IMG/VR virus record: IMGVR_UViG_3300027898_000039 | Span: 1 to 24,174 of that record | Reading direction: 5' to 3' (one strand) | Length of the DNA: 24,174 nucleotides | Origin: a virus | Shown: positions 2,684 to 19,700 of the stretch, in pieces | How the letters are laid out: the number at the start of each line of letters is the position of its first letter | Numbering within the stretch: position 1 is the first letter of the stretch | Notes under the pieces: generated by a model | Seen by the model: only the letters and a program-made list of their open reading frames with translations | The model's database searches: none | What the model was told of the DNA's origin: nothing | Made by a program: the position numbers and the translations under genes

Positions 2684-4689
2684 GCCAGCCGTACGAACGT
2701 ATCCTGTGCATTGACTTCGAGACGCGTTGGGACAAGACCAACTACACGCTCTCGAAGATGACCACCGAGGCGTACATACGCGACCCGCGCTTCAAGGCGT
2801 TCGGCTGTTGCGTACACGAGGTAGGCACCAAGCAGCCCACGGTGTGGATACCGCACTCGCACCTGCAGCAGTACTTCGACAACATCGACTGGAGCACGAC
2901 GGCGGTGCTGGCGCACAACGCCCAGTTCGACGTGTCGATCCTGTCCATGGTGTACGGGCACCTGCCGTGCTTCATCTTCGACACGCTCTCCATGGGCCGC
3001 GCGTTGCGCGGGGTGGAGGTAGGCAACTCGCTGATGAAGCTGGCCGAGGACTACGGACTGCCGCCCAAAGGCCGCGCGGTGCACAGCACGGATGGGCTGG
3101 AGGAGCTGCCCCTCGATGTCGCCAAGGAGCTGGCCGACTACTGCAAGCACGACGTGTTCCTGTGCGAGGAGATATTCGCGCGCTTCATGCTGCGCCTAGA
3201 CCCGGACGGCACCACTCATGGCGCGTATCCGACCAAAGAACTGCGGCTGATCGACATGACCCTGCGCATGTACGTGAACCCCACGCTGGTACTCGACGCG
3301 CCCATGCTGGAGCTGGCCTTGCAGGAAGAGAAGGAAAAGCTCGCCTTGGCCCTGTTGCGCGCCGACGTTGAGGAAGCTGCGCTGGCAAGCAACGACCAGT
3401 TCGCCGAAGTCCTGCGCAAGCTCGGCGTGGAGCCGCCCACCAAGATCAGCAAGACAACGGGAAAGGAGGCGTTCGCATTTGCAAAGAACGACGCCTTGTT
3501 TCAGTCCCTACTCAATGGAGACGATGAGGATGTGGCACTACTATGTGAGGCACGTCTTCGCGTTAAATCGACCTTGGAGCGCACTAGAGCACAGCGATTT
3601 CTCGACATCGAATCCCGCGGCGCTCTTCCAGTACCGCTGGCCTACTATGGCGCGAGCGTTACGGGTCGCTGGGCTGCTGCGAAAGGGTCCAACATAAACC
3701 TGCAGAACATGAAGCGCGGCTCGTTCCTGCGCAAGGCCATCATGGCCCCGGAGGGGTATCTGGTGTGCGTGACCGACCTGTCCCAGATTGAGCCACGCGT
3801 GCTCGCGTGGCTGTCGGACTACGAGGACATGCTGAACATCTTCCGCTCAGGGGCTGATCCGTACGCGGCGTTTGGCGCGCCCATGTTCGGCGTGCCGGGG
3901 ATGACCAAGGAAAGCCACCCAATCCTGCGCCAGAGCGCGAAGTCGGCCTTGCTGGGGGCTGGGTACCAGCTGGGCTGGGCGAGCTTTGCTGGGCAGCTTC
4001 TGGTGGGCTTCCTCGGGGCGCCGCCGCTGCGGTACAACAAAGCGGCCGCCAAGCAGCTGGGCGTGACCAAGGATGACGTTGCCAAGTTCCTGTCGTGGCA
4101 GGAGAACGTCGAGAAGATGCAGGCTATTCCGCACTCCTGCACCGAGGAGGAGCTGGTTATCCACTGCGTCGCCGCCAAGGCTATCATCGACAAGTACCGC
4201 GCGGCAGCGGAGCCGGTGGGGGCCTTCTGGCAGCTGCTGGAGAACCTGATCACCCACAGCCTGTACGGCGGGCAGGAGTACACGCACAAGGGCGTGCTGC
4301 ACTTCAGCAAGGGGCGCATCGAGATGGCCAACGGCATGCACATCCGCTATGATGATTTGCAGCAAGCGCGGGACGGCAAGGGGCGCGTGCAGTACCACTA
4401 CAGTGACGGCAAGAAACGGGTCAAGCTCTATCCGGGCAAGGTCTGCAACAACGTCACGCAGGGTACGGCGCGCATCATCATGTCTGACGGGCTGCTGCGC
4501 ATGCAGCCTCGGTACCCTGTGCTGGGAACCGTGCATGACGAGGGTTTGAATTTGGTGCCGGAAAGCGATGCCGGCACCGCTCTGCCGTGGTGTATCGCGC
4601 AGATGACAAAGGTGCCGAAGTGGATGCCGGGTATTCCGCTTGCTGCGGACGGCGGCATTCATAAACGGTATGGACTGGCGAAAAACTAG
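2680..4689 (+). CDS. Family A DNA polymerase with 3'-5' exonuclease (669 aa)
   Basis: A replicative DNA polymerase of the Pol I/T7 gp5 type. The N-terminal proofreading exonuclease has Exo I (IDFET, D12 and E14), Exo II (AHNAQFD, D84) and Exo III (YCKHD, Y154 and D158). The polymerase domain has motif A (TDLSQIEPR, D366), motif B (R417 ... K421 ... Y429) and motif C (VHDE, H619-D620-E621). There is no 5'-3' exonuclease domain, and the length is close to T7 gp5 (704 aa). The residue four after the motif B lysine, equivalent to Phe762 of E. coli Pol I, is Leu425. It starts in an ATGA overlap with the upstream gene and is followed by nuclease and helicase genes, so it is probably the phage's own replicase. 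Identification is secure; processivity factors are not evident. Confidence 0.97.
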   Translation: MSQPYERILCIDFETRWDKTNYTLSKMTTEAYIRDPRFKAFGCCVHEVGTKQPTVWIPHSHLQQYFDNIDWSTTAVLAHNAQFDVSILSMVYGHLPCFIFDTLSMGRALRGVEVGNSLMKLAEDYGLPPKGRAVHSTDGLEELPLDVAKELADYCKHDVFLCEEIFARFMLRLDPDGTTHGAYPTKELRLIDMTLRMYVNPTLVLDAPMLELALQEEKEKLALALLRADVEEAALASNDQFAEVLRKLGVEPPTKISKTTGKEAFAFAKNDALFQSLLNGDDEDVALLCEARLRVKSTLERTRAQRFLDIESRGALPVPLAYYGASVTGRWAAAKGSNINLQNMKRGSFLRKAIMAPEGYLVCVTDLSQIEPRVLAWLSDYEDMLNIFRSGADPYAAFGAPMFGVPGMTKESHPILRQSAKSALLGAGYQLGWASFAGQLLVGFLGAPPLRYNKAAAKQLGVTKDDVAKFLSWQENVEKMQAIPHSCTEEELVIHCVAAKAIIDKYRAAAEPVGAFWQLLENLITHSLYGGQEYTHKGVLHFSKGRIEMANGMHIRYDDLQQARDGKGRVQYHYSDGKKRVKLYPGKVCNNVTQGTARIIMSDGLLRMQPRYPVLGTVHDEGLNLVPESDAGTALPWCIAQMTKVPKWMPGIPLAADGGIHKRYGLAKN

Positions 4690-4699
4690 AAAGGACGAT

Positions 4700-4999
4700 A
4701 TGAAGATACCGAAACGCTTTAAGCTCGCGGGCACTGCTATTGAAGTGCATACGCGACGCACACTTCGCGGCAACGTGTGGGGGCGTGCGTGGCTGGACAT
4801 GAACTGCGTAGAGATCGCCACGCACAGCAAGGGCAAGCCGCGCCCGCTGGAGGGTCCGGTAGGCGTTAGCCAGACGTTCTGGCACGAAGCGACGCACCTC
4901 ATCCTGTCGGCAATGGGCAACAAGCTCTGCGACGACGAGATGTTTGTCAATCGCTTCGGCAAGTTGCTGGCCGAGATTTGCGAGACAGCGGAGTTTTAA
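4700..4999 (+). CDS. Small HExxH zincin-like protein (99 aa)
   Basis: The segment TFWHEATHLILSAMG contains an HExxH motif (H62, E63, H66), the zinc-binding and catalytic signature of metallopeptidases, on a hydrophobic helix as expected. E80 in the following helix (DDEMFVNRFGKLLAEI) is a possible third ligand. The N-terminal part (PKRFKLAGTAIEVHTRRTL) looks like a beta sheet. I chose the ATG at 4700 for its AAGGA site; a longer frame inside the polymerase gene has no support. Small HExxH proteins of about 100 residues with this layout occur in phage replication regions, generally without a known substrate. The next gene overlaps its stop as TAATG. Peptidase activity is inferred only from the motif. 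Confidence 0.75.
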   Translation: MKIPKRFKLAGTAIEVHTRRTLRGNVWGRAWLDMNCVEIATHSKGKPRPLEGPVGVSQTFWHEATHLILSAMGNKLCDDEMFVNRFGKLLAEICETAEF

Positions 5000-6497: not shown

Positions 6498-8013
6498 CCC
6501 CGAGAAGTTTCGGGTCATCCCGAAACACCACATCAAGGCTATCGAGGGCGGCTACGAGGTAACGGTGTACTGGGGCTTGGACGAGGCCCGGGTGTTGCAC
6601 AACCTAGGTGTCAGGAACGTGCCGTCGCCGATTGCGCGCAAGTATCAGTGGCCGGGGCGGTACATACCGATGGCGCACCAGAAGGCCACTGCGGCGTTTG
6701 TCACCATGCACCGGCGCGGGTTCGTATTCAACGACCCGGGCACAGCCAAGACCATGAGCGCGCTGTGGGCGGCGGACTACCTGATGAAGCGCGGGGACGT
6801 GCGGCGCTGCCTTATTGTGTGCCCCCTGTCGATCATGCAGACGGCGTGGATGGGGGACATCATGAACAGCGTGATGCACCGCAGCGCCGTGGTGTGCCAC
6901 CATGACAAAGCCTCGCGCCGTATCGAGATGCTGCAGGACGACTACGAGTTCGTGATCATCAACTACGACGGGCTGAACCTCGTTGCCAAGGAGATCATTG
7001 CGGATGGGCGCTTCGATATGGTCATCGTGGACGAGGCCAACGCCTACGCCGTGCCGACTACCAAGCGCTGGAAGTCGCTGGCCAGCATCATTCGCCCAGA
7101 CACGTTCCTGTGGATGATGACGGGCACGCCGGCCGCGCAGTCACCGGTGAACGCGTACGGGCTGGCCAAGCTGGTGAACCCCTCGGGCGTGCCGCAGTTC
7201 ATGACGGCGTGGCGCGACAAGGTGATGAACAAGATCAGCACCTTCAAGTGGGCGCCCAAGCCCAACGCCAAAGAGCTGGTGTTCCAAGCGCTGCAGCCTG
7301 CGATACGCTTCAGCAAGGCCGACTGCCTTGACCTTCCCCCGGTACTCAAGACGACGCGCGAGGTACCGCTCACGCTGCAGCAGAAGAAGTACTACGAGAA
7401 GATCAAGAGCGACATGCTGGTGGTGGCCGCAGGGCAGACGATCAGCGCGGTGAACAAAGCCGCGGTCGTCAACAAGCTGCTGCAGATCAGCTGCGGGGGC
7501 GTGTACAGCGAGGACGGCGCGGTGGTGGAGTTCGATGCCGCGCCGCGCATGAACCTGCTGCTGGAGATACTGGCCGAGACGGATCGCAAGGTGCTGATCT
7601 TCGCCATGTACCGCTCCAGCATCGACGCCATTTACACCTTCCTCACCAAGCACGGCGTGAAGGTGGGTGTGATCCACGGCGGCGTGGCGGCCAGCAAGCG
7701 CGGTGACATCATCAATGCCTTTCAGCATTCTGATACGCTGGACGTGCTGCTGATGCAGCCGCAAGCGACGGCCCACGGGATCACCTTGACAGCGGCAGAC
7801 ACGGTGGTATTCTTTGGCCCCCTGATGAGTATAGAGCTGTACTTGCAGTGCATCGCCCGCGCTGACCGCAAAGGGCAGACGTCTGACAAAGTGACCGTGG
7901 TGCACATTCAAAGCAGCCCGATTGAAAAGAAAATGTTTGCGGCTATGGGTGCGCGAGTGACGGATCACATGCTGCTTACTGACATGTTCGATGAAGAAAT
8001 GGGGGCCAAATGA
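6454..8013 (+). CDS. SNF2-type superfamily 2 helicase/ATPase (519 aa)
   Basis: A superfamily 2 ATPase of the SNF2/DEAD-like group found in phage replication modules. The helicase motifs appear in order: an upstream Q-type element (PMAHQK, 72-77), Walker A (DPGTAKT, 94-100), motif Ia (CLIVCPLS), motif II (VDEAN, D193-E194), motif III (MTGTP, 222-226), then in the second RecA lobe motif V-like ATAHGITLT and motif VI QCIARADRKGQ (465-475), which is characteristic of SNF2. Motif II reads DEAN instead of DEAH/DEAD, and Walker A has Ala in place of the Gly before Lys. It starts at GTG with AAAGGA upstream and ends in an ATGA overlap. The likely job is DNA translocation, fork remodelling or branch migration with the nearby polymerase and nucleases. 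Confidence 0.92.
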   Translation: MEIVDNKALRIRTRDPEKFRVIPKHHIKAIEGGYEVTVYWGLDEARVLHNLGVRNVPSPIARKYQWPGRYIPMAHQKATAAFVTMHRRGFVFNDPGTAKTMSALWAADYLMKRGDVRRCLIVCPLSIMQTAWMGDIMNSVMHRSAVVCHHDKASRRIEMLQDDYEFVIINYDGLNLVAKEIIADGRFDMVIVDEANAYAVPTTKRWKSLASIIRPDTFLWMMTGTPAAQSPVNAYGLAKLVNPSGVPQFMTAWRDKVMNKISTFKWAPKPNAKELVFQALQPAIRFSKADCLDLPPVLKTTREVPLTLQQKKYYEKIKSDMLVVAAGQTISAVNKAAVVNKLLQISCGGVYSEDGAVVEFDAAPRMNLLLEILAETDRKVLIFAMYRSSIDAIYTFLTKHGVKVGVIHGGVAASKRGDIINAFQHSDTLDVLLMQPQATAHGITLTAADTVVFFGPLMSIELYLQCIARADRKGQTSDKVTVVHIQSSPIEKKMFAAMGARVTDHMLLTDMFDEEMGAK

Positions 8014-8210
8014 GCGAGTACGAACACAAGACGTACCGCACCGGTTTCAGCATCACCGCAACGAACCCGAAGCAGCAAAACCTTGCGGATGCGCTGGCTA
8101 AGTCCATCCACATGACGTGGGACCGAGTGGCTGCGGATGTGTTTAAGACGTACTTTGCCGAGCACCCAACGCCCGAGGAGGAACACTACGCTGCGAGGAA
8201 CGGAGAATGA
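8010..8210 (+). CDS. Small protein with PEEEHYAARNGE tail (66 aa)
   Basis: It starts in an ATGA overlap with the helicase gene, with GGGGG upstream, and ends in an ATGA overlap with the next gene. Residues 1-53 look like a mixed beta-helix fold (YEHKTYRTGFSITATNPKQQNLADALAKSIHMTWDRVAADVF). The last 12 residues, PEEEHYAARNGE, are identical to the end of the next protein, although the two bodies are otherwise unrelated. Function unknown. The shared tail suggests a common partner or a common fate. Confidence 0.7.
   Translation: MSEYEHKTYRTGFSITATNPKQQNLADALAKSIHMTWDRVAADVFKTYFAEHPTPEEEHYAARNGE
8172..8207 (+). repeat. Repeated C-terminal tail, copy 1 (copy 2 at 8354-8389)
   Basis: The two 36-base segments encode the same 12 residues. 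They differ at six bases, all synonymous (CCC/CCA, GCT/GCC, GCG/GCA, AGG/CGC, GGA/GGC). The arrangement indicates an old duplication or transfer of the tail, kept at the protein level. Confidence 0.85.
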
Positions 8211-8392
8211 CAGACCTCACAATGGCTGCGCTGGAGCAAATGCTCCAAGAGGTGCATCAAGCGGTGCTCGATAGAAGCCAAGTAATTTGGCTGTCTCCGA
8301 CCAAGTTGATTATCCCCAAGCACGTGTACGACATGCTCGCAGAAATCAAATCCCCAGAGGAGGAACACTACGCCGCACGCAACGGCGAATAA
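8207..8392 (+). CDS. Small protein with PEEEHYAARNGE tail (61 aa)
   Basis: It is coupled to the preceding gene by ATGA and has GGAG upstream. Residues 1-48 are mainly helical (MAALEQMLQEVHQAVLDRSQVIWL, then IPKHVYDMLAEI). The tail, residues 50-61, equals the tail of the preceding protein but is written with different codons at five of twelve positions. Function unknown. It is the last gene before the 66-base gap holding an operator-like site and a promoter. Confidence 0.7.
   Translation: MTDLTMAALEQMLQEVHQAVLDRSQVIWLSPTKLIIPKHVYDMLAEIKSPEEEHYAARNGE
8354..8389 (+). repeat. Repeated C-terminal tail, copy 2
   Basis: Second copy of the segment at 8172-8207, placed directly before the stop codon as in copy 1. 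The sequence before the tail is not detectably related between the two genes, so only the tail is shared. Confidence 0.85.
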
Positions 8393-8396
8393 ATAA

Positions 8397-8418
8397 TTTT
8401 GTCAAGTTCTTAACAAAA
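8397..8418 (+). promoter_or_regulatory. Operator-like 22-bp palindrome (site 2)
   Basis: Nine of the eleven base pairs around the centre between 8407 and 8408 are symmetric. The outer arms are TTTTGT and ACAAAA, and the inner arms are AAG and CTT. It lies in the 66-base gap before the coiled-coil gene and covers the -35 hexamer TTAACA (8410-8415), a typical place for a repressor. Its reverse complement matches 18 of 22 bases of the site at 1424-1445. Confidence 0.5.
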
Positions 8419-8437
8419 CCCGAAAAGGGTGTATAGT
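8410..8437 (+). promoter_or_regulatory. Sigma-70-like promoter TTAACA-N16-TATAGT
   Basis: TTAACA at 8410-8415 and TATAGT at 8432-8437 are separated by 16 bases in an AT-rich gap. Transcription would start near 8444 and read into the ATG at 8459, serving the coiled-coil, Tad2-domain and ssDNA-binding genes. The -35 lies inside the palindrome at 8397-8418. It appears to be a host-type promoter. Confidence 0.55.
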
Positions 8438-8458
8438 TCTAGCACACGGAGAAACGAC

Positions 8459-8881
8459 ATGAACGACGAAACAGAAGCAGCAGCGCCGGCCATCCCTATG
8501 GAGAAGCTGGCGAAAATATACATCAAGATGCGCGACAAGCGGGCCGAGCTGACCCGTCTGTACGAGCAGCAGGATGCGGAGATCAAGGCGCAGCAGGACG
8601 AAGTTGCCAGCGCCATGAAGGAGATCATACGTGCGGCCGGCGGCACCAGCATGGGCACCGCGCACGGTACGGTTTCCCTGAAGACGAGCAAGCGCTACTA
8701 CGCGCAGGACTGGGAAGCGATGGGCGCCTTCATCATCGAGCACCAAGCCCCGATGCTGTTGGAGAAACGCATTGCACAGAAGAACATGGAAGAGTTCCTC
8801 GAAGCCAACCCCGGCGTCATACCGCCCGGACTGAACATCATGTCCGAGATCACGGTCAGCGTCACTAAACCACGAAAGTAA
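8459..8881 (+). CDS. Conserved-type coiled-coil phage protein (140 aa)
   Basis: I chose the ATG at 8459, with GGAG upstream, over an in-frame ATG further back that overlaps the -10 box. Residues 15-58 form a charged coiled coil (KLAKIYIKMRDKRAELTRLY, then EQQDAEIKAQQDEVASAMKE). Residues 60-140 form a probable beta-helix domain (GTAHGTVSLKTSKRYYAQDW, then FLEANPGVIPPGLNIMSEIT). The layout of coiled coil followed by a small globular domain loosely recalls Gam-type DNA-end-binding proteins, but I see no decisive motif. Proteins of this kind lie near ssDNA-binding and primase genes in other phages, so a role in DNA metabolism is plausible but unproven. Confidence 0.75.
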   Translation: MNDETEAAAPAIPMEKLAKIYIKMRDKRAELTRLYEQQDAEIKAQQDEVASAMKEIIRAAGGTSMGTAHGTVSLKTSKRYYAQDWEAMGAFIIEHQAPMLLEKRIAQKNMEEFLEANPGVIPPGLNIMSEITVSVTKPRK

Positions 8882-8883
8882 AG

Positions 8884-9390
8884 ATGAAATCCTATATCGG
8901 AACGAAAGTCGTGCACGCCAAGCCGATGACGCGGCTGGAGTACAACACGCATCGCGGCTGGGCGGTGCCCGAAGACGAGAACGGCGCGGACGAGGGCTAT
9001 CTCGTTGAGTACGTCGCTGGCGGCAGCGCGAACCACAAGGACCACAAAGGCTACATCAGCTGGAGTCCCAAGGACGTGTTCGAGCACGCATACCACCCGA
9101 CGACCAACATGCGCTTCGGCGACGCAATCGAGGCCGCCAAACAGGGCGAGCGTATCGCCCGCGCAGGCTGGAACGGCAAAGACATGTGGGTGGCCTACTC
9201 CCCGGGCAACCCCGTCACTCCGGCAGGGCAGTTCTGGTCGCAGGCCAATGCGGCTTACGCACACTCCCAACCGGGGCACCACGTCGCTGTGCTGCCGTGC
9301 TTCACCATGAAGACGGCGACCGGCGAGATTCTCATGGGGTGGCTGGCGAGTCAGACCGACATGCTGGCCGACGACTGGACCATTGTTTAA
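8884..9390 (+). CDS. Two-domain protein with C-terminal DUF2829/Tad2-type domain (168 aa)
   Basis: Residues 76-168 show the DUF2829 pattern: MRFGDAIEAAKQGERIARAG, then WNGKDMWV, a central F-x-M-K-T segment, and the ending LADDWTIV. DUF2829 is the family of Tad2, a phage protein that blocks Thoeris defence by sequestering its cyclic ADP-ribose-type signal. Residues 1-72 form a separate domain (MKSYIGTKVVHAKPMTRLEY, then GWAVPEDE, DEGYLVEY, GYISWSPKDVFEHAY), a module I associate with other phage proteins, of unknown function. Stand-alone DUF2829 proteins are about 90-100 residues, so this is a fusion. The ribosome binding site is weak, and the ATG lies two bases after the upstream stop, which suggests coupling. 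The family call is firm; anti-Thoeris activity is inferred. Confidence 0.85.
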   Translation: MKSYIGTKVVHAKPMTRLEYNTHRGWAVPEDENGADEGYLVEYVAGGSANHKDHKGYISWSPKDVFEHAYHPTTNMRFGDAIEAAKQGERIARAGWNGKDMWVAYSPGNPVTPAGQFWSQANAAYAHSQPGHHVAVLPCFTMKTATGEILMGWLASQTDMLADDWTIV

Positions 9391-9406
9391 CTGAAGGAAG
9401 AAAATC

Positions 9407-10402
9407 ATGAACGCAGTAACTGTATTCAACCCGGGCCAACTCCCTGCCTTTGCCAAAAAGGGAGAAGTCTCTGCCATCGCCAAGGCGCTGGCTGGCGGCG
9501 CTGGCCAGCAAGGCAAGCGCATCTCCATCAAGGGCGGTGTGTTCCGCCTGATCGCCGACGGCAAGGAAGTGGCCGCTATCGACGAGCGCTATCTGGACGT
9601 TGTTGTGGTGAACGCCGCGCCCAAGGTGTCGCGTACGTTCTTCATGGGCGAGTACAACGAAGCCAACCCCACGCCGCCCACGTGCTTCAGCCAGTCCGGT
9701 GACGTGCCTGATCCTAGCATCAAGCAGCCGCAGGCGGCGTCGTGCGCTACGTGCCCGCAGAACGTGGCAGGCTCTGGCAAGGGCGACTCGCGCGCCTGCC
9801 GCTACAGCCAGCGTCTGGCCGTGGTGCTGGCCAACGACATGGAAGGCGACGTGATGCAGCTGTCGCTGGCCGCGACCTCCCTGTTCGGCAAGGCCGAGGG
9901 CGAGAACCGCCCCATGCAGGAGTACGCGCGCTGGCTGACGGCGCAGGGCATCGACCCCACCATGCTGGTGACGCGCCTGAAGTTCGACACGAACGCGCCT
10001 ACGCCCAAGCTGTTCTTCAAGGCCATGCGCTGGCTGACCGACGAAGAGTTCGCGCTGACGCAAGAGAAAGGTCAGTCGCCTGACGCCGTCAAGGCGGTCA
10101 CGCTGACCGTGTCCCAGACCGACGGCGTACAGGCTGCGCAGCCCGCTCCGTTCGTTGCGGCTGGCGCGCCGCCCAAGGCGGCCAAGGCCGCGAAGCCGGC
10201 TCCGGCGCCCGTGGCGCAGGATGAGGACGAGGAGCCCCCGGCACCCCCGCCCAAGACCAAGGCCAAGGCTGCGAAGCCCGCGCCTGTGGCGCAGGACGAG
10301 GACGAAGAGCCCACGGTGCGCAAGGCCGCGGCTCCCGCGCCCAGCGCGGTGCCTGCTGCTACCGGTCTGGCCAAGGCACTGGCTGACTGGGACGACGAGT
10401 AA
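9407..10402 (+). CDS. Candidate ssDNA-binding protein with zinc site and acidic tail (331 aa)
   Basis: GAAGGAAG lies before the ATG. Residues 35-215 form a globular, beta-rich domain (KRISIKGGVFRLIADGKEVA, then RYLDVVVVNAAPKVSRTFF). Four cysteines, C93, C113, C116 and C131, could hold zinc inside the fold, reminiscent of the zinc module in T4 gp32. Residues 250-331 are a disordered Ala/Pro/Lys/Asp/Glu tail with two copies of AKPAP(AP)VAQDEDEEP (261-277 and 288-302) and the acidic end ALADWDDE, as expected for an SSB tail that recruits partners. Position between the polymerase/helicase genes and the primase gene agrees. I recognise the protein type in other phages but not a confirmed function, so ssDNA binding is an inference. 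Confidence 0.72.
   Translation: MNAVTVFNPGQLPAFAKKGEVSAIAKALAGGAGQQGKRISIKGGVFRLIADGKEVAAIDERYLDVVVVNAAPKVSRTFFMGEYNEANPTPPTCFSQSGDVPDPSIKQPQAASCATCPQNVAGSGKGDSRACRYSQRLAVVLANDMEGDVMQLSLAATSLFGKAEGENRPMQEYARWLTAQGIDPTMLVTRLKFDTNAPTPKLFFKAMRWLTDEEFALTQEKGQSPDAVKAVTLTVSQTDGVQAAQPAPFVAAGAPPKAAKAAKPAPAPVAQDEDEEPPAPPPKTKAKAAKPAPVAQDEDEEPTVRKAAAPAPSAVPAATGLAKALADWDDE
10187..10312 (+). repeat. Imperfect tandem repeat in the acidic tail of the candidate SSB
   Basis: Two copies of a coding repeat, 10187-10237 and 10268-10312, encode AAKPAPAPVAQDEDEEP and AAKPAPVAQDEDEEP. They differ by several synonymous changes and by a two-residue AP insertion in the first copy. This gives two clusters of acidic residues separated by a basic Lys/Ala linker. 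Confidence 0.8.
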
Positions 10403-10407
10403 GAAAG

Positions 10408-10505
10408 TTAGGGTGGCCCGAATCCGTAAAAGGATCAGGGCTGGTACACCACGGGAACCCGCCAGCAATGGACAGGCCGAAAAAGACCGGGGCCACCCGC
10501 CCTAA
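10408..10505 (+). ncRNA. Structured leader or RNA element before the HTH gene
   Basis: The gap between the candidate SSB gene and the HTH gene is bounded by a long inverted repeat. TTAGGGTGGCCC at 10408-10419 pairs with GGGCCA (10490-10495) and CCCTAA (10500-10505), leaving a four-base bulge. Alternatively, 10411-10419 pairs perfectly with 10490-10498 over nine bases. Inside are smaller stems: ATCC/GGAT (10422-10425 with 10432-10435) and GCTGG/CCAGC (10440-10444 with 10462-10466), the latter enclosing a short CGG/CCG pair. The element ends three bases before the ATG of the HTH gene, which has no visible Shine-Dalgarno. It could be a regulatory leader, a protein-binding RNA or a DNA structure at an origin. 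I know no family that matches. Confidence 0.45.
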
Positions 10506-10508
10506 ACT

Positions 10509-10733
10509 ATGGCTTACCACACCACAACCCGTAGCCTTTTAAAGAACGCCCCCAGCACGCTGGGGGTTCGTCTTGGTAGGCTTGCCGTTCGCAAGAAGGT
10601 CTCTGTCCATGAGGTCGCTCTGCGCACGGGTGCGTCTCGCACCACCATTTACAACTGGTTCGCCGGAAGAGGCGTCACAAAAGCATACCGCGCAGCGGTG
10701 CAAGAACTTATTGCCGAGCTGCGGACAAAATAG
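10509..10733 (+). CDS. Small HTH DNA-binding protein (74 aa)
   Basis: Residues 31-53 (VSVHEVALRTGASRTTIYNW, then FAG) form a clear helix-turn-helix of Cro/XRE style, with TGASRTTIYNWF as the recognition region. The N-terminal arm (RSLLKNAPSTLGVRLGRLAV) and the C-terminal helix (YRAAVQELIAELR) complete a compact domain. The start is chosen because the LL-x-x-AP-x-TLG-x-RLGR arm appears to be part of the family, although no Shine-Dalgarno precedes the ATG. It lies between a structured leader and the primase-helicase gene, 9 bases upstream of the latter. A regulator of the replication genes or an origin-binding protein are both possible. It could also be the protein that binds the operator-like sites at 1424 and 8397. 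Confidence 0.8.
   Translation: MAYHTTTRSLLKNAPSTLGVRLGRLAVRKKVSVHEVALRTGASRTTIYNWFAGRGVTKAYRAAVQELIAELRTK
10549..10566 (+). other. Perfect hairpin inside the start of the HTH gene
   Basis: CCCCCAGC-AC-GCTGGGGG is a perfect eight-base inverted repeat with a two-base centre, placed over codons 14-20 of the HTH gene and followed by TTCGTCTT. In RNA it would be a very stable hairpin close to the start codon. It is terminator-like but lacks a real U-tract. Confidence 0.6.
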
Positions 10734-10742
10734 AGGTGCGCG

Positions 10743-13604
10743 ATGGATACAAACGACTTCCTGTCGGCAGTGCTGCCGGCACAGGGAAAGTACTGCACAT
10801 TCATTAGCCGAGGGGACTTACGCAAGAACATATTTGTCGATTCACTGGACGCCCTGTACGACACGAACATCAAGCAAAGTGATGCGGGTGTCCAGACCTA
10901 TTACGCACTCTCCGCGTTCGATGACGCGGGGTATCGCAAGGCCGAGAACGCGGTAGCCATCCGCGCGCTGTTCATGGATCTCGATTGCGGTTTCGAGGAG
11001 AAAAACGGTGCGCTGGTGCAGAAGGCCTTTCCCAGCCAGAAGGCGGCGTACCAAGCCCTGCTGGCCTTCTTGAAGACCTCGGGCCTGCACGCGCTAGGCC
11101 TGCCGTGGCTAGTCAACTCCGGCTCGGGCATCCACGTGTACTGGCCCCTGCGCCACGATGCAACTATTGCCCAGTGGAAGCCCGTGGCAGAGGCGCTGAA
11201 GAAGGCGGCTGTCACGCTGAGCTTCCCCATCGACGCCACGGTCACGTCGGACGCCGCCCGGGTACTGCGCTGCCCCGGCACGCTGAATTGGAAAACCCAG
11301 CCCCCCAAGCCCGTGCTGCTGCGCCAGCGCGGCGATGTCTTCGAGCTGGAAGATATTGCAGAGACCCTAGCCTCCTACACCGTCGCGCCTCCCGCGCCCA
11401 GCACAGCACTCACGCTGCCCGGAACCCGCCCCACGAACGTCCTGTCGCCTGTAGCGCAGGCGCTGGTCGGCAACAGCGTGACGTACTTCAAAAACATCAT
11501 GGAGCGTACAAACGAGGGCACCGGCTGCGCGCAGCTGCAGCACTACGTTGAGCACGCCGCCGAAGACGGCATGGAGCCCGTATGGCGCGCGTGGCTGTCG
11601 ATCGCCAAGCACTGCGTTGATGGCGACAAGGCGTCGATCAAGCTCTCCCGGATGCACCCGTACGACCCCGAGCGCATGGCGCAGAAGCTGGACGCTATCA
11701 AAGGCCCCTACGCCTGCACGACGTTCGACTCGATAAACCCCGGCGTGTGCGCAAGCTGCCCGCACTGGGGCAAGATCACGAACCCGCTGGCCCTTGGGCG
11801 CGAGATAAAGAGCACGGTCGAGCCGGCGGCGTACGACCACGTGGTAGAGGGCGACAGCGTGCGCGTCGATCGCCCCACGCCACCTTGGGGCTTTAGCTAC
11901 GGGGAGAAAGGCGGGCTGTTCTACCGCTACGTCGCGCAGAAGAAGGACGAGGTGGACCATGACATCATGCTGCTGCCGTACGACTTTTTCATGACCGACA
12001 TCTACGCCGACGCCAATGAGCGCGTGGCAGAGTTCAAGGCGGTCAAGCCCAGCGGCGTGTACACCTTGGGCATTCCGCTTGCCAAGGCCACGAACCAAGC
12101 CGACTGCATCAAGGCGCTGGCCGCCGAGAGTATCGTTACCAGCGTGAGGAACGACGCGTATCTTGCCTCGTTCGTGCGCCAAAGCATCATCTCGCGCAGC
12201 GCCGTTGGTGACGAGGTCCAGATACCGCCCCGGTTTGGTTGGCTCGAAGGCGGAGATTTTGCGCTGTGCGATCGCGTTATCAGCCAGCACGGCCCGCAGC
12301 ACGACTACGTGTTCAAGTCCTCACGGCTGAGCAACCTGATCGAGATGACGCGCCCACGGGGAACCATCGAGGGCTGGCGCAAACCTTTCGACATGATGCG
12401 CCGCAAGAACTTGTGGGGGCATTTAGCTTTTGCCACGCTGGGGTTTGCCTCGCCCCTGATGCACTTCATGCCGGCCGGCGCGCGGGCGGTGGTGGCGTTG
12501 ATGGCCGGCAAAGGCTCCGGCAACGGGAAGTCCTACTCGGCCGCGATGTGCAACTCCATCTGGGGAGACCCCAAACACTACAACGTGCCCCCCAAGACGT
12601 CAGACAATACGCTGATGCAGCGCGCCGGCCTGCTGGGCTCCCTGCACTTGGGCGTGGACGAGATCACCGACAAGCAGCGCAACAGCGAGCGCGAGTTCAT
12701 TCCCCAGATCGTTTTTGCCTACGCCGCCGGCGCACACAAGCTCAAGGGCAGCGCCACGGGCAACGCCGAGATTCGCAACGACTTGTTCTGGGAGGGCTTC
12801 ATGTCCCTGACGGGTAACACGCCAGCGCTGGAAGCCATGATGGGCGCGCGAGGGACGACTTCTGAGGGGGAAGCCCGCCGGCTGCTGGAGTGGGCGGTGC
12901 CGGAGAACATGGACATGCGCTGGTCTGCGGAAGACGAGGCCGACGCGCAGGCGGTGAACGAGAACTACGGGCTGGCAGGCCAGCTGTTTATCGAATGGTG
13001 CGTGACGCACCAGCCAGAGGTGCAGCAGGTGTGCATGGACACGCTGGCGCTGTGGAGGCGCGAGACGGGGGCGCCGGGGACGGAGCGGTTCTGGAGCAAC
13101 GGCTGTGCCGCCAGCATCGCGGCGTGCATCCTGCTCAAGCGCGCAGGGATAATCGACATCCCCGCTTCCGAGATCATGAACTTCTGGATCAACGAAGTCA
13201 TTACGCCGGCGCGGCGCATCATCTTCAGCAACCAGCGCTCGTCGCTGGACGTCCTGCTGGAGTACATCCGTGAGCACAGCCACAACTTCATCCGCGTGTC
13301 GTCCAACGTGGTCATCTCGAACCTTGCCGGCAACAACGAGCACGTGGAGAACAACCGGCGACAGGTGCGCGGGCGGGTCGAGCAGGACATCGCGGCGGGC
13401 ACGGAGAACACGTACGTGGAGATTCAGCTGCTGCGCCACCACTGCGCCCAGCGCAACGTCGGGTTCTCACAGTTCCTGCGCGATCTGGAGGCTACCGGCA
13501 CCGTTACCTCGGGGCGCAAGAACCTGACGGCGGGCACCTCCGGCTCGCAGCTGCGCGTGCCGTGTATCTGCCTGTCCCAGCGGCTGAAGGTGAAAGGCAA
13601 ATAG
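10743..13604 (+). CDS. Primase-helicase: AEP-like primase with DUF927-type ATPase (953 aa)
   Basis: A fused replication protein. The N-terminal third looks like an archaeo-eukaryotic primase/RepB-like domain: the metal-binding FMDLDCG (D79, D81), LVNSGSGIHVYWPL with H131, and SDAARVLRCPGTLNWK (169-184). A cysteine cluster, C325, C336 and C339 (GVCASCPHW), may bind zinc and lies between primase and helicase. From about residue 380 a DUF927-like region (PWGFSYGEKGGLFYRY) leads to an ATPase core with Walker A GKGSGNGKS (589-597) and Walker B LGVDE (636-640). The product would prime and unwind DNA for the phage polymerase, so no separate DnaB/DnaG type gene is needed. An intrinsic terminator follows. 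The start at ATG 10743 has GAGGTG upstream. Confidence 0.88.
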   Translation: MDTNDFLSAVLPAQGKYCTFISRGDLRKNIFVDSLDALYDTNIKQSDAGVQTYYALSAFDDAGYRKAENAVAIRALFMDLDCGFEEKNGALVQKAFPSQKAAYQALLAFLKTSGLHALGLPWLVNSGSGIHVYWPLRHDATIAQWKPVAEALKKAAVTLSFPIDATVTSDAARVLRCPGTLNWKTQPPKPVLLRQRGDVFELEDIAETLASYTVAPPAPSTALTLPGTRPTNVLSPVAQALVGNSVTYFKNIMERTNEGTGCAQLQHYVEHAAEDGMEPVWRAWLSIAKHCVDGDKASIKLSRMHPYDPERMAQKLDAIKGPYACTTFDSINPGVCASCPHWGKITNPLALGREIKSTVEPAAYDHVVEGDSVRVDRPTPPWGFSYGEKGGLFYRYVAQKKDEVDHDIMLLPYDFFMTDIYADANERVAEFKAVKPSGVYTLGIPLAKATNQADCIKALAAESIVTSVRNDAYLASFVRQSIISRSAVGDEVQIPPRFGWLEGGDFALCDRVISQHGPQHDYVFKSSRLSNLIEMTRPRGTIEGWRKPFDMMRRKNLWGHLAFATLGFASPLMHFMPAGARAVVALMAGKGSGNGKSYSAAMCNSIWGDPKHYNVPPKTSDNTLMQRAGLLGSLHLGVDEITDKQRNSEREFIPQIVFAYAAGAHKLKGSATGNAEIRNDLFWEGFMSLTGNTPALEAMMGARGTTSEGEARRLLEWAVPENMDMRWSAEDEADAQAVNENYGLAGQLFIEWCVTHQPEVQQVCMDTLALWRRETGAPGTERFWSNGCAASIAACILLKRAGIIDIPASEIMNFWINEVITPARRIIFSNQRSSLDVLLEYIREHSHNFIRVSSNVVISNLAGNNEHVENNRRQVRGRVEQDIAAGTENTYVEIQLLRHHCAQRNVGFSQFLRDLEATGTVTSGRKNLTAGTSGSQLRVPCICLSQRLKVKGK

Positions 13605-13760: not shown

Positions 13761-16700
13761 TCAAGGGGCACTTGGGCGTGCTGTTCCGGCGGCGTTGAGC
13801 ACCTGCTTCGCAATATCCGTGCGCTTGGCGCGCAGTTGCTGGATTTTGTCGCGCTTCTCTTCGGGCGTCATGCCCGATGCGCGCACCGCATTCTCCGCCT
13901 TCTGCAGCTCCGACATGGTGCTGGTGAACTTGGACGCAATCTGCGACCGTGCATACGCATCGGCGTGCTGCTCAAGGAACGCCTGCGCTGCCTCGGGCCG
14001 ACCCTTCTTGGCCAAGTCCTGCACGGTGTTGCTGACCTGCTGCGCTTCGGTTGCCATCTGATAGGCCTGCTCCACCACCGCGCCAGCGTCCTGCGGCTGC
14101 CACAGCGAACCGGTGATGGGCTCTTGACTGGCCAGCGGCGCCGGCGCGCCGGCGTGCTCACCGAAGACAAGACTGCTGGCGATCTGGGAAACGGCCAGCC
14201 CGATCTGACCGGTGTAGCCGCCGATTAGGTGGTCCACCATCACTGGCGAGACGCCGTAGGCCTTGCCCAGCGCTTCAGCAAAGCCGGACGTGTTGTCCCG
14301 CACCCGTGCCTCGGGCGACAGCGTGGACTCGTGCCGCGTCTCCAGCGAACGCCCGGTAAAGAACGAATGGTTCGTCGCCACCTCAATGGCCGGGCGCAGC
14401 ACCTGCGGGATGCCGTCCGTATCACCACCGGGGACTATGCGCTGCGCGAGCTGGCGCATGCCTGCCGCCGCGTCTTTGTCGTTGCCCATGGCGTAGTTGA
14501 CCATGGCTTCGGGAACCGACTTGAACAGCATGCCTGCCTCGAACGGGATGGGGATGCGCAAGGGCTCATCCATGCCGGGCACGCGCATGAAGAAGTTGTT
14601 GTACTTCTGCTCAGGCGTGGCGTTTTGGTACGCCGGGTCGTCCTGCTGGAGCATGGAATACAGGATCGTGCCGCCGGCCACCATCATGCCGCGCTGAAAC
14701 AATTTCTGACGAATCTGCAGGCGATCATTCATGGGCATATTGCCGCGCGCCGCCTTGACCAGCGTGTTGATGCCCTGAATCTGCGAGTTGATAAAGGGGT
14801 TCAGCGTGTTCAGGATGTGGATGCTGGGCGAGATACCGCGCTTGGTAAAGTTCATCGACTCCAGCGCCATGTAGCTGGCTTCCATATCGGACAGGCCCTG
14901 CTTCTTGTAGTCCCCGTACCGAATCTGGCGCGTCATCGCATCGGCCTTGGCGTGCAGCGTGTTGGCTTTTGCCAGCAAGTTTTCCCAGCCGGGCTTGCCA
15001 CTCTGCATCTGGCGATAGATGTTGGTGAGGTCTTGGGGCAAGCCGGTGAACACCTCACCGCCGCTTATCCCGCGCCGCTCCATCAAATTGCCGCCAACTT
15101 CCTTGAGCGCTTTGCCGAGGCTGTTCAAGTTAACGCCCGCCACCATGGCAGACGACAAAGTGTCCTTGAACAGGATGCGCGGAGCGGACAACGGATTGGC
15201 AACGAACATGTGGCGCAGCAAGCGGCTGGGGGCGCCAGCCATCTTCAGCAGCGCGCTCTGCTGCACCGGAAGTCCTGCCATGCCCTTGACCAGCAGCTCT
15301 GCAGGCACCTCGGGCGTGTCGTGCACGACCGCGAAGTGCGGAACACCGTCCACCTTGAAGTGCAGCGTGTTGGGGCCGGCACGGCGATCTCCGCTTTTGA
15401 CATCCGCCAGCCCGATCTTCTGCAGCTCCATAGCAGTGTTTTTGGTTGCCTGATTGCGCAGCCCCATGTCCAAGATCATGTTGGCGTTGCGCACCGCACT
15501 GGTGCCGAAATCCAGAATGCGCTGATCGCCCCCCACCAGTTCATGCAAGTAAGGCTGATCCTTGACGTTGCCAACCTTGGTGATCTCCTCAGACCCCATC
15601 AGCATACTGACACTGCCATCGCTGTTCTCGCGGTAATACGGCACGTAGTCCTTGTTCGCCAACATCTTGGTGCCCAGTTCTTGGGAGAACGCGCCCGTGC
15701 TGATGCCGAACTTCACGGCGTCTTGGTTGAACGCGCGGTACTGATCCGAGGCCTTGTCGAAAATGTCTTTCAGCCCGGGCACTGCCTTTATTTCCGCCAT
15801 GGCGCTGTTCAGGTCCGCCTGCGTAACTTCGCCGCCGTAATTCAGCCGTTCCAGTCCTACGGTGCCGGCGCGCTTGCCGACCTCGTACAAAGAGAAAAGG
15901 TTGTTAGTGGCTTCGTCGCCGCCGGTCAACTTGTTCGCGTCGCGCAGCGTTTTGGCCACGTCCATCAGGTTGGGGCTGCCGTCTTTGGATTCGTACAGCC
16001 ATTCGTTGCGGCCGTCAGCGCGCGTAAGTTTGTTGAGCGACGGGAACCCGCGTCCCACCGCCTGCCCCAACAGGTTCATCCGCTGATTGGCCATGGCCAA
16101 AAAATACCGGACCTGCGTGCCAGCGAGCGGGTCCATTTTGTCCGCGTGCCGCTTGACCCCTGCCAGCCCGTCTACCATTTTGGTCTCAAACTCCAGCGCT
16201 GCGCGCCCCCACGCGTTGCCCTTGAGCTTCTCGGACATCGGGCGTTGGGTGGCGATGGTGCGTTCTGCCAGCGCGCCTGCGGCCTTCAGTCGGTCGTCGT
16301 ACTTAGCCGGACCGCGAAAAATGCTGGGCGTTGCGCTGCCGTTGATTTTTGCCGAAGGCTTCAGAATGCGGTCTACCAAATCTTTAGCGTTGCCGCCCGG
16401 AGTAATCGGGTCCATGCCGAGCAGGCGCCGGAACAAGTTTTTGACGTGATCCAGTATCGACAACGGCTTGCCAAACGCATCCAGTTTTGCGCGAAACTCA
16501 GGGTTCGAGTACACCTCTGCGGCGAACTCGCGCGTCGAGGTCAGTCCGTGTTCGCCTTTGAACGCGGCGTTGCCCATGACCATCTTGCGCAGCCCTTCGA
16601 GCGAGGCGCGCGCCTTGCGCTGATCGGGCGTGAGCTTGGCGGGATCAGTCTCCAGCAGCACGCGGTCAGTCGCGGCGTGCGACATCTCGTGCAGCAAATC

Positions 16701-19700
16701 CTCTTCCGTCAAACCCTCGGGGTGCATCGTGATGTGGTTAGCGCCGGGATCGTAGAGCCCTGCCACAGACTCGCCGTTGTGCGTCACGTTTGCGTCCACG
16801 CTGAGCTTGGTGCGCAAGAGCAAGGGCTGCAGTTTTGCAGCAGCCGCGCGCACTTCCGGCGTGGAACCGTTCTTGGCCAGATCAGCCGCGACATCCATAA
16901 GGCGCCCATCGTGCGCAGCTTCGCGCGCCGCGGCAGACACCGGGGTAGCCCCGCGTGATGCGGAGGGTTTGTTGGCCGCTTTCGCAGCTTTCGCAGCTTC
17001 CGCAGCCTTGCGCTCCTCTTCGGATTTTCGCAGCTCCTCTGCTTGCGCATCGGTTGGGCGAGCCGCTCCGGCTGTGGATTTTTCTGCGGCCGCTTCCGCA
17101 TTCTTTTTTGCTGCAGCTGCGTCGTCGCGCGCGCGGCCAAGCTCGGCTTCTAGCGAAGCAACTTCCTTGCCCAGCTTTTTCACCACTTCGGTTACTTGCT
17201 TCGACACGTCTAAATTCGCATACGCCGTTTGCCGTTCTCGCGCATCTGCCAGCTTGCGGTTTAGGTCCGCTACCTTCTGCTCGGCAATGTCTTGCAACTT
17301 CTCGGCAGGTGTGCGCGACGTGTCTTCGCGCGCGGGTTTTAGTGCCTCCGCTTCTTCATTGGCTTCACGCTGCTCCCGGCCCGACACCTTGGTGTTGCGC
17401 TCGTTCGGCTTGCGCTCTTCCTGCGTAGGGTTGCGCCCGCCGACCTTGTTCTCGCCCTGTTTGCTTTCTTGCGAACTCGTACGCTGATCGCCGGCCATGA
17501 CTTCTTTTTTGCTGGCTTGGCTGACGCGCCCCGGCTTGAGAGGAGCGGTTTCCGTACCGGCAACGCCTTTGGTCGTGCCACGATCTTCCAGACTGAGCAG
17601 GTGATCAGCCGTCAAGTACTCTTCCGCAGCTTTGCGTCGTTCCTCGGGGGTTTGCAGGTGCTCTTTTACACCCGCCTGTTGCTTGGACAGTATCTTGTCA
17701 AGCTGCTCCAACCGCCGACGGTTCTCGTTGAGCAGTTTTACCTTTTCGGTGCGCGCCTTACCCGTAGCTTTACGCGCGGCCTCTTCACCGGCGGGGATGG
17801 TCTTTTGAATCAATCGTTCGCGCTCTTCCTCCATTGCCAGCCGGTCGGCGTTGTCTTCGGCACCGTCACGATCCGCTAAGTAACGCTCGGCGCGTTCGAT
17901 CTTGTTCAGCTCTGTCTGGTACTTTTTGTACGAAGCGTCAGATGGCTCCAGCTGCTCCATCGCCGCAATGACCCGCGCCTTGCGGTCGCCGCTGATACTC
18001 TCCCGCGCCTTCTGCAGCGCGTCGAACATGACGCGCATGGTGGGCATCTTGCCAAGCCGTTCAAGGAAAGCGTTGCGCTCTGCAGTACGCGCGTTGCTGG
18101 CGGCTTTAGCGGCCCCATGAGTCTCGCCAGATTCTTTGCCGCGCGCGGCTTGCTGCTCCAGCGCAGGAGCCAACAACGCCTGTTTTTTCTTTTCTAGCTC
18201 TTGCTTCTCGTTCGACTGCGCGCCGAGTTTATCGGCAAGGTCCGGTGAATGCCGTTCGTGCTCGGCAGCCAGCCCTTCTTCCGGGTTACCTCGCAATTTC
18301 GCAGCGTGCGCTTCCACTTCCCGGTCCGCTTCGGCTTTGATTTTTGCGGCAGCGCCGGTTTCTTTTTCCTGCTCCAACACTTTTTGTCGCGCGCCTTCGA
18401 CTTCTGCTTCAGCACGCGGCTCGCCTACACGACGCGCTTGATTGCGTTGCAGTTTCTTGAGCGCCTGCTCAGCCGTCTCCAGCTCCGTATGCGCTTGGTG
18501 CAGGTTGTCAATCTCTTCCACCAGCTGTTTTTGCAGCTGCGCGTCGCGCTCCAGAAAGCGCTGCGCGGCTTCTGGCAGGGCTTCTTTGTGCGCCACCAGT
18601 CGCTCAGTCAGGTCGGCCATGTCGCGCTGCAGCTTGCGCGCAATCGTGTAGTTCTCGTGCGTTGCGTCCCGATGCAGCACAATGCGCATCTCTTGCTGAC
18701 GCCGCATGAGGTTGTGCACAAGGTCCAGCCCCTGCGCGTTCAGTGCTTTGTACTTGTCTGCATTGGCCTGTATGGTTTCCTGCAAGTTGTCGCGCCAATC
18801 AACCGACTCGGCAAACGCATCGTGCGCGTTTTGTAAACGAATACGGGCCGGCAATAACTCCTTGCTTAACTGCGCGCGCACGTCCTCCAAACGCTTCTTC
18901 GCGGCATCATGCTCGGCCTCGGCGCGCTGCTGTGCTGCGCGTTGTTCCATCATAAGAGAGGCGGCCTGTCGGGCATTGCCTTTGGCGGCAGCTAGCGCAG
19001 CTTCGTTGCGCGTCTTTATCTCTGCGCTGCGGCGGTCGTATTCCGCCTGCATGCTGTCCATGCTCTTGGTCAACTCGTCTATGCGCCCCTGCAGCGGTTC
19101 GATCAGGCGCATGGCTTGGTGGATAGAGGGGGTGGTAACCCCCGCCATTTGTCGCGCAACACGCAGCCCTTCGCTTCCAAGATATTTGAAGAAGTCAACG
19201 ACACTATCAAACACCGTACCGCGCGTAACCGGTGCGCGGTCGGACGCCACGGGCTTTCCGTTAACTGTCTGGTCTTTGAAGGGCGGGGGTTTGTTGGCCG
19301 CGGGATGGTCGCCCGCGTACTTGTCCGCGGTGGCGGGGTTGGCGGGTTTGGGATGCTTCATTCCCACCGCGTCGAAAAGATCGCCTTGCTCAGCGCGATT
19401 CACCGGTTTTTCTTCGCCTCGGGCAGTTCCCCATGCGGTCTCGCGCGTGCGAGTGGGGTTTTCAGTATCCGAGCGCTTGCCCGCTTCAAGGCGCGCAAGA
19501 TGGTCGATGACCGCTTGTTTGGCCTGCTCATCTTCGGTACCGATACGAAGCGAGTGCAGCCACGCTGCCACGTCGTCCGCCGCGCGAGTCCCCCGAGATT
19601 GTTCTGTTGCAGTACGCGTAAGCGGTGTCCCGTCGCGTCCGGGACCGTTCATCTGCACTTGCGCAGTGCGCGCCTCGTCCGCGCTCGTGTGGTTCGACAG

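Follow-up and report, generated by a model that had tools for sequence, protein, structure and literature searches.

The locus

The DNA analysed here, a 24,174-base virus record from IMG/VR (hereafter the window, meaning that whole stretch), encodes a protein in which a small N-terminal module precedes a Tad2-like domain. The features of this fusion gene and of its immediate surroundings are as follows.

8410..8437, + strand: promoter-like site TTAACA-16-TATAGT (10 of 12 matches; weak), which precedes the preceding gene and not the fusion gene
8429..8881, + strand: preceding gene, with a match to phrog_13900; its TAA (8879-8881) lies 2 nt before the fusion ATG at 8884
8884..9390, + strand: fusion gene (168 aa; ATG start, TAA stop), matching PHROG 872 over its whole length
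8884..9099, + strand: N-terminal module (residues 1-72), with no Pfam or PDB relatives, recurring with other partners
9049..9093, + strand: module core motif GYISWSPKDVFEHAY (residues 56-70), conserved across partner types
9109..9387, + strand: Tad2-like domain (residues 76-168), matching PF11195 (E 7.1e-24) and, by sequence and fold, PDB 8wjd
9160..9189, + strand: Tad2 motif RAGWNGKDMW (residues 93-102), from an alignment of 73 fusions
9340..9378, + strand: Tad2 motif WLASQTDMLADDW (residues 153-165), from the same alignment

Genes for a family A DNA polymerase, a PD-(D/E)XK nuclease and a SNF2-type helicase lie upstream on the same strand and a DUF927 primase/helicase lies downstream, which bears out the initial annotation in placing the fusion gene among replication genes, while late-type genes (an SLT tail protein and a 2950-aa ORF) are found on the opposite strand. 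The same annotation had put the gene directly behind a promoter, which is wrong: its ATG comes 2 nt after the preceding stop, and the sole promoter-like site is the one at 8410-8437, where one such site was found and 0.4 were expected by chance. The preceding gene is probably co-transcribed with the fusion gene. When all window ORFs were scanned with HMMs for Acb4, Acb2, RyDEP and crAss001_48 domains none was found, and a second sponge gene in the window was thus discarded.

A C-terminal Tad2-like domain

A profile search of residues 76-168 agrees with the earlier assignment of a C-terminal DUF2829/Tad2 domain, with a match to Pfam PF11195 (Tad2-like) that spans all 73 profile positions and scores 84.6 bits against a curated cut-off of 25. 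By sequence, the best of the solved Tad2 chains is SptTad2 (8wjd, E 2.8e-18), together with HgmTad2/AcrIIA7 (8kbi, E 5.6e-15), ModTad2 (9eib, E 1.6e-12) and SPO1 Tad2 (8wje, E 8.8e-12; 8sme, E 5.4e-11). As far as sequence comparison goes, domain and PHROG matches at such E-values exclude chance. The single-chain AlphaFold2 model of the fusion, built on the alignment of 73 fusions (mean pLDDT 94.4, pTM 0.68), contains two confidently predicted domains, the relative orientation of which is less certain, and it retains the Tad2 fold: the best PDB match is cGG-bound SptTad2 (8wjd, E 1.1e-8, TM 0.76 of target), and the 24 chains matched at E ≤0.001 are all Tad2, with nothing besides.

Both landmark motifs of the family (RxGWNGK and WLASQTDMxADDW) are present in the alignments to SptTad2, HgmTad2 and ModTad2. 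All 73 aligned fusions match PF11195, and in every one of them R93, W96 and G98 in the first motif and W153, S156, D159, D164 and W165 in the second are invariant, while about half of the domain varies. The loops of these GWNGK and SQTD regions form the Tad2 ligand pocket (PMC12043709), and the pocket-lining motifs (the GWNGK loop; the SQTD loop and the last helix) are intact in the window protein as judged by alignment rather than by coordinates.

The ligands of the Tad2 family also include cyclic dinucleotides and His-ADPR, a wide range (PMC12043709, PMC13299392), and in a review the ability to bind cyclic dinucleotides is linked with a long insert between strands 2 and 5 (PMC12043709). The corresponding distance between landmark residues is 60 in the window protein, 63 in SptTad2, 69 in HgmTad2 and 51 in ModTad2, so that the window protein has an insert of the long type, a feature that it has in common with SptTad2. 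Given the link drawn in the review, dual binding of cyclic ADP-ribose isomers and cyclic dinucleotides is possible, and the window protein may bind cyclic dinucleotides besides ADPR-type signals. Thoeris, which the initial annotation had named as the target, is a plausible one, made less certain by this family range and by the long-type insert.

Two other readings of the domain deserve mention. One is drift towards a different ligand, a host metabolite for instance, in which case the gene would have no part in counter-defence. The wide ligand range of the family and the variability of about half of the domain are compatible with such a drift, but both Tad2 motifs are intact, the modelled fold is closest to cGG-bound SptTad2, and the linked genes and fused domains found elsewhere (see below) are other immune-signal binders, all of which makes drift unlikely. 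The other is that the protein is an AcrIIA7-like anti-CRISPR. The label 'anti-CRISPR protein' is indeed given to relatives in phages Louie, Huey and phi1_146050, and one solved Tad2 was deposited as AcrIIA7. This same AcrIIA7/HgmTad2, which is among the PDB fold matches, has however been solved with cADPR and with cGG, as fits a sponge, and the label was transferred by family name. We consider this reading very improbable.

A widespread but unnamed phage family

Taken whole, the protein is a member of PHROG 872 (E 1.9e-60, residues 1-168 against positions 13-171 of a 172-position profile), with both domains present over the full length in the order module then Tad2. When the fusion protein was used as a tblastn query, 356 phage records were matched, in 89 of which at least 80% of the protein was covered. 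Together, PHROG 872 and these 89 records rule out that the fusion is peculiar to the window phage; on this evidence the module-Tad2 fusion is a known and widespread phage family that has no name. One of its members is gp49 of Escherichia phage N4 (YP_950527), which has the same two-domain architecture as the window protein. In N4 the fusion gene faces the one for the virion RNA polymerase and overlaps gp48, a gene of the Acb4 family, whereas the window copy lies among replication genes, with no other sponge in the 24 kb. Since gp48 belongs to the Acb4 family by sequence, the N4 pair amounts to a two-gene sponge operon (L159:1633-2486).

The N-terminal module

What sets the window protein apart from the solved Tad2 chains is the 72-residue N-terminal module, which these do not have. 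That it is a distinct domain, as had been proposed earlier, is in keeping with separate searches of residues 1-72, which gave no Pfam match and no significant PDB match by sequence (best E 0.038); likewise, nothing was found below E 0.6 when the module profile was compared with the PDB, and nothing significant when the AlphaFold2 model of the module was compared with PDB folds. Two candidate relatives were considered and discarded: the N-terminal beta domain of Tad1, since the PDB matches listed, whether by fold or by sequence, include no Tad1, and an SH3-like DUF1918 domain, for which there is just E 0.037 to one divergent member. The module is nevertheless well defined. Its pLDDT block means are 88-98, its predicted secondary structure consists of strands 2-5 and 9-16, helix 17-24, strands 37-43 and 57-62 and helix 63-69, and residues 1-72 match PHROG 872, 9467, 32732 and 18865.

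W60, P62 and F66 are invariant whatever the partner domain, and Y57 and S59 nearly so. As a working definition we propose the core GYxVxY-(D)-GYxSWSPxxxFExxY placed N-terminal to an immune-signal-binding domain, an arrangement that is found in the window protein; the module HMM gives E 3.4e-38 on the window ORF, the window sequence being one of the 18 from which that HMM was made. The module also occurs by itself, in standalone proteins of 57-78 aa (phages phiEaP8 and EK8; loci L250 and L251). It is most likely a small, autonomous, beta-rich domain, which we refer to as a mobile sponge-associated module.

One module, several partners

Searching with the module alone (residues 1-74) was the way to find proteins other than module-Tad2 fusions. 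Module proteins were clustered at 80% identity, and the 175 clusters obtained from all queries have as partner Tad2 (109), crAss001_48 (32), gp49_66 (15), RyR (2), Acb2 (1) or both crAss001_48 and gp49_66 (2), the remaining 14, mostly standalone or truncated, having none. Module-only query sets were counted apart to avoid the bias of full-length queries: a partner domain (Tad2, Acb4, crAss001_48 or RyR) is present in 95 of these 104 clusters and lacking in nine, and Tad2, Acb4 and RyR, leaving crAss001_48 aside, account for about two thirds. Pfam gives a similar list for 73 representatives that lack the simple Tad2 motif, with crAss001_48 in 34, Phage_gp49_66 (Acb4) in 16, Tad2 in eight, RyR in two and Acb2_Tad1_hairpin in one, and no further family among them. 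In bacterial genomes (presumably prophages), partner HMMs found a partner in 66 of 80 loci, and two HMM-negative loci that were tested have crAss001_48 by Pfam. These counts refer to at most the best 80 loci of each viral contig scan and, for RyR and Acb2, to HMMs made from few sequences.

The module is nearly always N-terminal to its partner, and eight of the loci in bacterial genomes encode proteins with three domains: module-Acb4-Tad2 in Clostridia (L308, L326, L350 and L356, around 3900-4800) and module-crAss001_48-Tad2 in Bacteroidota (L349, L353, L358 and L363). In L308, Tad2 and Acb4 structures of the PDB were both matched, Acb4 weakly (E 0.008). Pfam also found single cases of the module joined to crAss001_48 and to Phage_gp49_66. 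Caulobacter phage RapA gp016 is a fusion of the module to an Acb2/Tad1 hairpin (PF24729, E 4.5e-17), with PDB matches to Acb2 and to T4 Vs.4 (E 0.002-0.004). A Foldseek search of viral models led to an RyR-domain protein of Yersinia phage TG1, in which the module HMM confirmed the module (E 9.7e-17) in the order module then RyR. In a few proteins the partner of the module is unassigned (L161, L158 and L170). As a side observation, an ORF from about 953 of L369 combines the module with a WDGH domain (PF25311), possibly a further counter-defence family.

Four of the five main partners (Tad2, Acb4, Acb2 and RyR/RyDEP) have nucleotide immune signals as their targets. For Tad2 and Acb2 a sponge function is established (PMC12043709). 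Acb4 (PF13876, formerly the N4 Gp49/Sf6 gene 66 family), often fused to the module or encoded directly upstream of it, is a sponge of which eight of eight homologs tested bind 3'3'-cGAMP, and several Acb4 homologs carry extra extensions, the nature of which the authors did not state (PMC11722364). Acb4, which is absent from the window protein, has an unrelated fold and takes 3'3'-cGAMP and its relatives as ligands. RyDEP (PF02026, the RyR domain) and Acb2 (PF24729), the partners in TG1 and RapA, likewise differ from the window protein in fold and chemistry; phage RyR-domain proteins hydrolyse or sequester 2'/3'cADPR and RyDEP can hydrolyse cADPR (PMC13232231). That the extra domain matters, as the initial annotation had suggested, is strengthened by this attachment of the same module to Tad2, Acb4, Acb2 and RyR.

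The fifth partner, the crAss001_48-related protein (PF21825), is the second most frequent. It is predicted to be a helical hairpin, but its model has no significant PDB match by fold, and the idea of a remote Acb2 was dropped at an hhalign probability of 0.1% and with no significant PDB fold match; a literature search for crAss001_48 found nothing. Because it is a partner of the same module, our analysis predicts, by association alone, that crAss001_48 is another immune-signal-binding family.

As judged from sequence, what is new here is the recurrence of the N-terminal module across several sponge families. The module itself may possibly have been described in the recent sponge literature; RyR, Tad1 and DUF2829 are all absent from a 2022 survey of viral NAD/ADPr systems.

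Association and partner swapping

The association with these partners is far from what neighbouring genes show. In the same loci, partner-type domains are found in 21 of 1238 neighbour genes (1.7%), most of which directly abut the module gene. Acb4 genes often lie directly upstream with overlapping or touching starts (N4 gp48-gp49 for example), and other adjoining sponge genes include Acb2 upstream (L148), Tad2 downstream (L234) and RyR nearby (L186). Two further arrangements were noticed in passing: in Vibrio phage 1.205.O a direct crAss001_48-Tad2 fusion, NVP1205O_04, adjoins the module gene (L170:1770-2282), and in Rhizobium phage RHph_X2_26 a phage TIR-domain gene is directly followed by an Acb2-family gene (L261:1-622).

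Partners have changed repeatedly. On a module tree based on about 70 columns there are at least 16 partner changes when branches under SH-aLRT 80 are collapsed and 11 with a cut-off of SH-aLRT 90, compared with a minimum of four and an average of 24 for shuffled labels. DNA similarity between positions 7500-11500 of the window and other phages is confined to the fusion gene, mostly to the module, and includes 81% identity over 119 bases with Burkholderia phage CSP3, where the partner is crAss001_48. Since partners change on the tree and DNA similarity is confined to the gene, the module moves between phages and between partners, which suggests a shared, swappable part in the disarming of bacterial immunity by phages.

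Variable gene context

Relatives of the fusion gene are found in several settings. Those of phages phiAH14a, CSP3 and Vibrio phage 1.205.O are in head-gene clusters, so that early expression, which the initial annotation had expected of such a gene, does not hold as a general rule; those of N4 and phiEaP8 adjoin the virion RNA polymerase gene, and those of 41E34.2 and EK8 are among replication genes, as in the window.

This bears on the possibility that the module serves as a tag for packaging or injection, by which sponges would enter the virion and arrive with the DNA. The position of the phiAH14a, CSP3 and 1.205.O genes between portal/head-morphogenesis genes and the major capsid gene would suit such a tag, as would a virion RNA polymerase neighbour in N4 and phiEaP8 that is itself injected. 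The replication-gene setting in the window, 41E34.2 and EK8 speaks against it, however, and so does a PHROG scan of 107 immediate neighbours, in which the 25 commonest families include no head gene that recurs. A head-packaging tag was therefore rejected, the gene neighbours being too mixed, and we regard virion delivery by the module as quite unlikely.

Proposed function

The best explanation, which we consider likely, is that the window protein is a predicted counter-defence protein that combines a Tad2 sponge (anti-Thoeris and/or anti-CBASS) with a mobile sponge-associated module. Given its Tad2 membership, the protein most likely sequesters signals: the C-terminal domain would form an oligomeric sponge (in Tad2 proteins a homotetramer with two pockets) that holds nucleotide immune signals, namely the cyclic ADP-ribose isomers of Thoeris and possibly (considering the long insert) the cyclic dinucleotides of CBASS, with the consequence that host defence effectors would not be switched on. 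The module most likely has a role in the same counter-defence, phages having attached it to at least four unrelated signal binders or hydrolases (Tad2, Acb4, Acb2 and RyR/RyDEP) as well as to crAss001_48.

Our preferred mechanism for the module is an activity of its own, putatively the binding of a further immune signal or of a host immune protein. The main rival is a purely structural role: inactive by itself, the module would aid assembly or solubility (for example as an oligomer cap or a linker) and thereby give the sponge more pockets or tighter ones. A module that is always small, beside a sponge domain and nearly always N-terminal would make a natural assembly aid, and its partners are oligomers: Tad2 and Acb4 sponges are tetramers and Acb2 is a hexamer (PMC12043709, PMC11722364). 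On the other hand, these partners differ in symmetry, the same module residues are conserved whatever the partner, and standalone module proteins exist in phiEaP8, EK8, L250 and L251. We give the structural role a serious chance, though one that falls short of even, and prefer an activity of the module's own because of the standalone copies and the sponges of different symmetry.

Some points count against the best explanation as well: (i) the module has no known fold relative, which makes any putative activity a guess, (ii) it is also found alone, with WDGH and with a few unassigned partners, (iii) the sponge function of crAss001_48 is a prediction, and once this family is left out fewer module proteins (about two thirds of the module-only clusters) have a partner with an experimental basis, and (iv) the gene context varies, head-gene clusters included. 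More tentatively, and with the balance tilting somewhat against it, the module of 50-75 residues might itself be a general counter-immunity domain, one that binds a further nucleotide signal or blocks a component of host immunity and that phages combine with Tad2, Acb4, Acb2, RyDEP and crAss001_48 into multi-target 'poly-sponges', and crAss001_48 might be an unrecognised and very common sponge family.

The interest of the module lies in its linking, as a small unnamed domain, sponge and hydrolase families that were discovered separately (Tad2, Acb2, Acb4 and RyDEP). Should the module prove specific to counter-immunity, it would provide a sequence handle for further anti-defence genes, of the kind represented by the RyR, WDGH and crAss001_48 fusions. 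It also allows a definite prediction about crAss001_48, a large family. Single chains that combine sponges of the Acb4 and Tad2 types do exist, and such a chain would block CBASS and Thoeris together. The question is testable now, since N4, a classic laboratory phage, carries a module-Tad2 fusion.

Other features of the window

Three further observations concern the window itself. The 2950-aa ORF on the - strand (13761-22613), which has no PHROG match and adjoins the SLT-domain tail protein, is probably a giant virion protein. In the protein encoded after the fusion gene (9407-10402), a long tail is rich in Ala, Pro and Lys and contains repeated acidic QDEDEEP stretches, as in some DNA-binding replication proteins. 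Upstream, two adjacent small ORFs (8010-8210 and 8207-8392) share the same tail, PEEEHYAARNGE, and a 37-nt DNA repeat is found at 8172-8208 and 8354-8390, the two copies being 84% identical and 182 nt apart.
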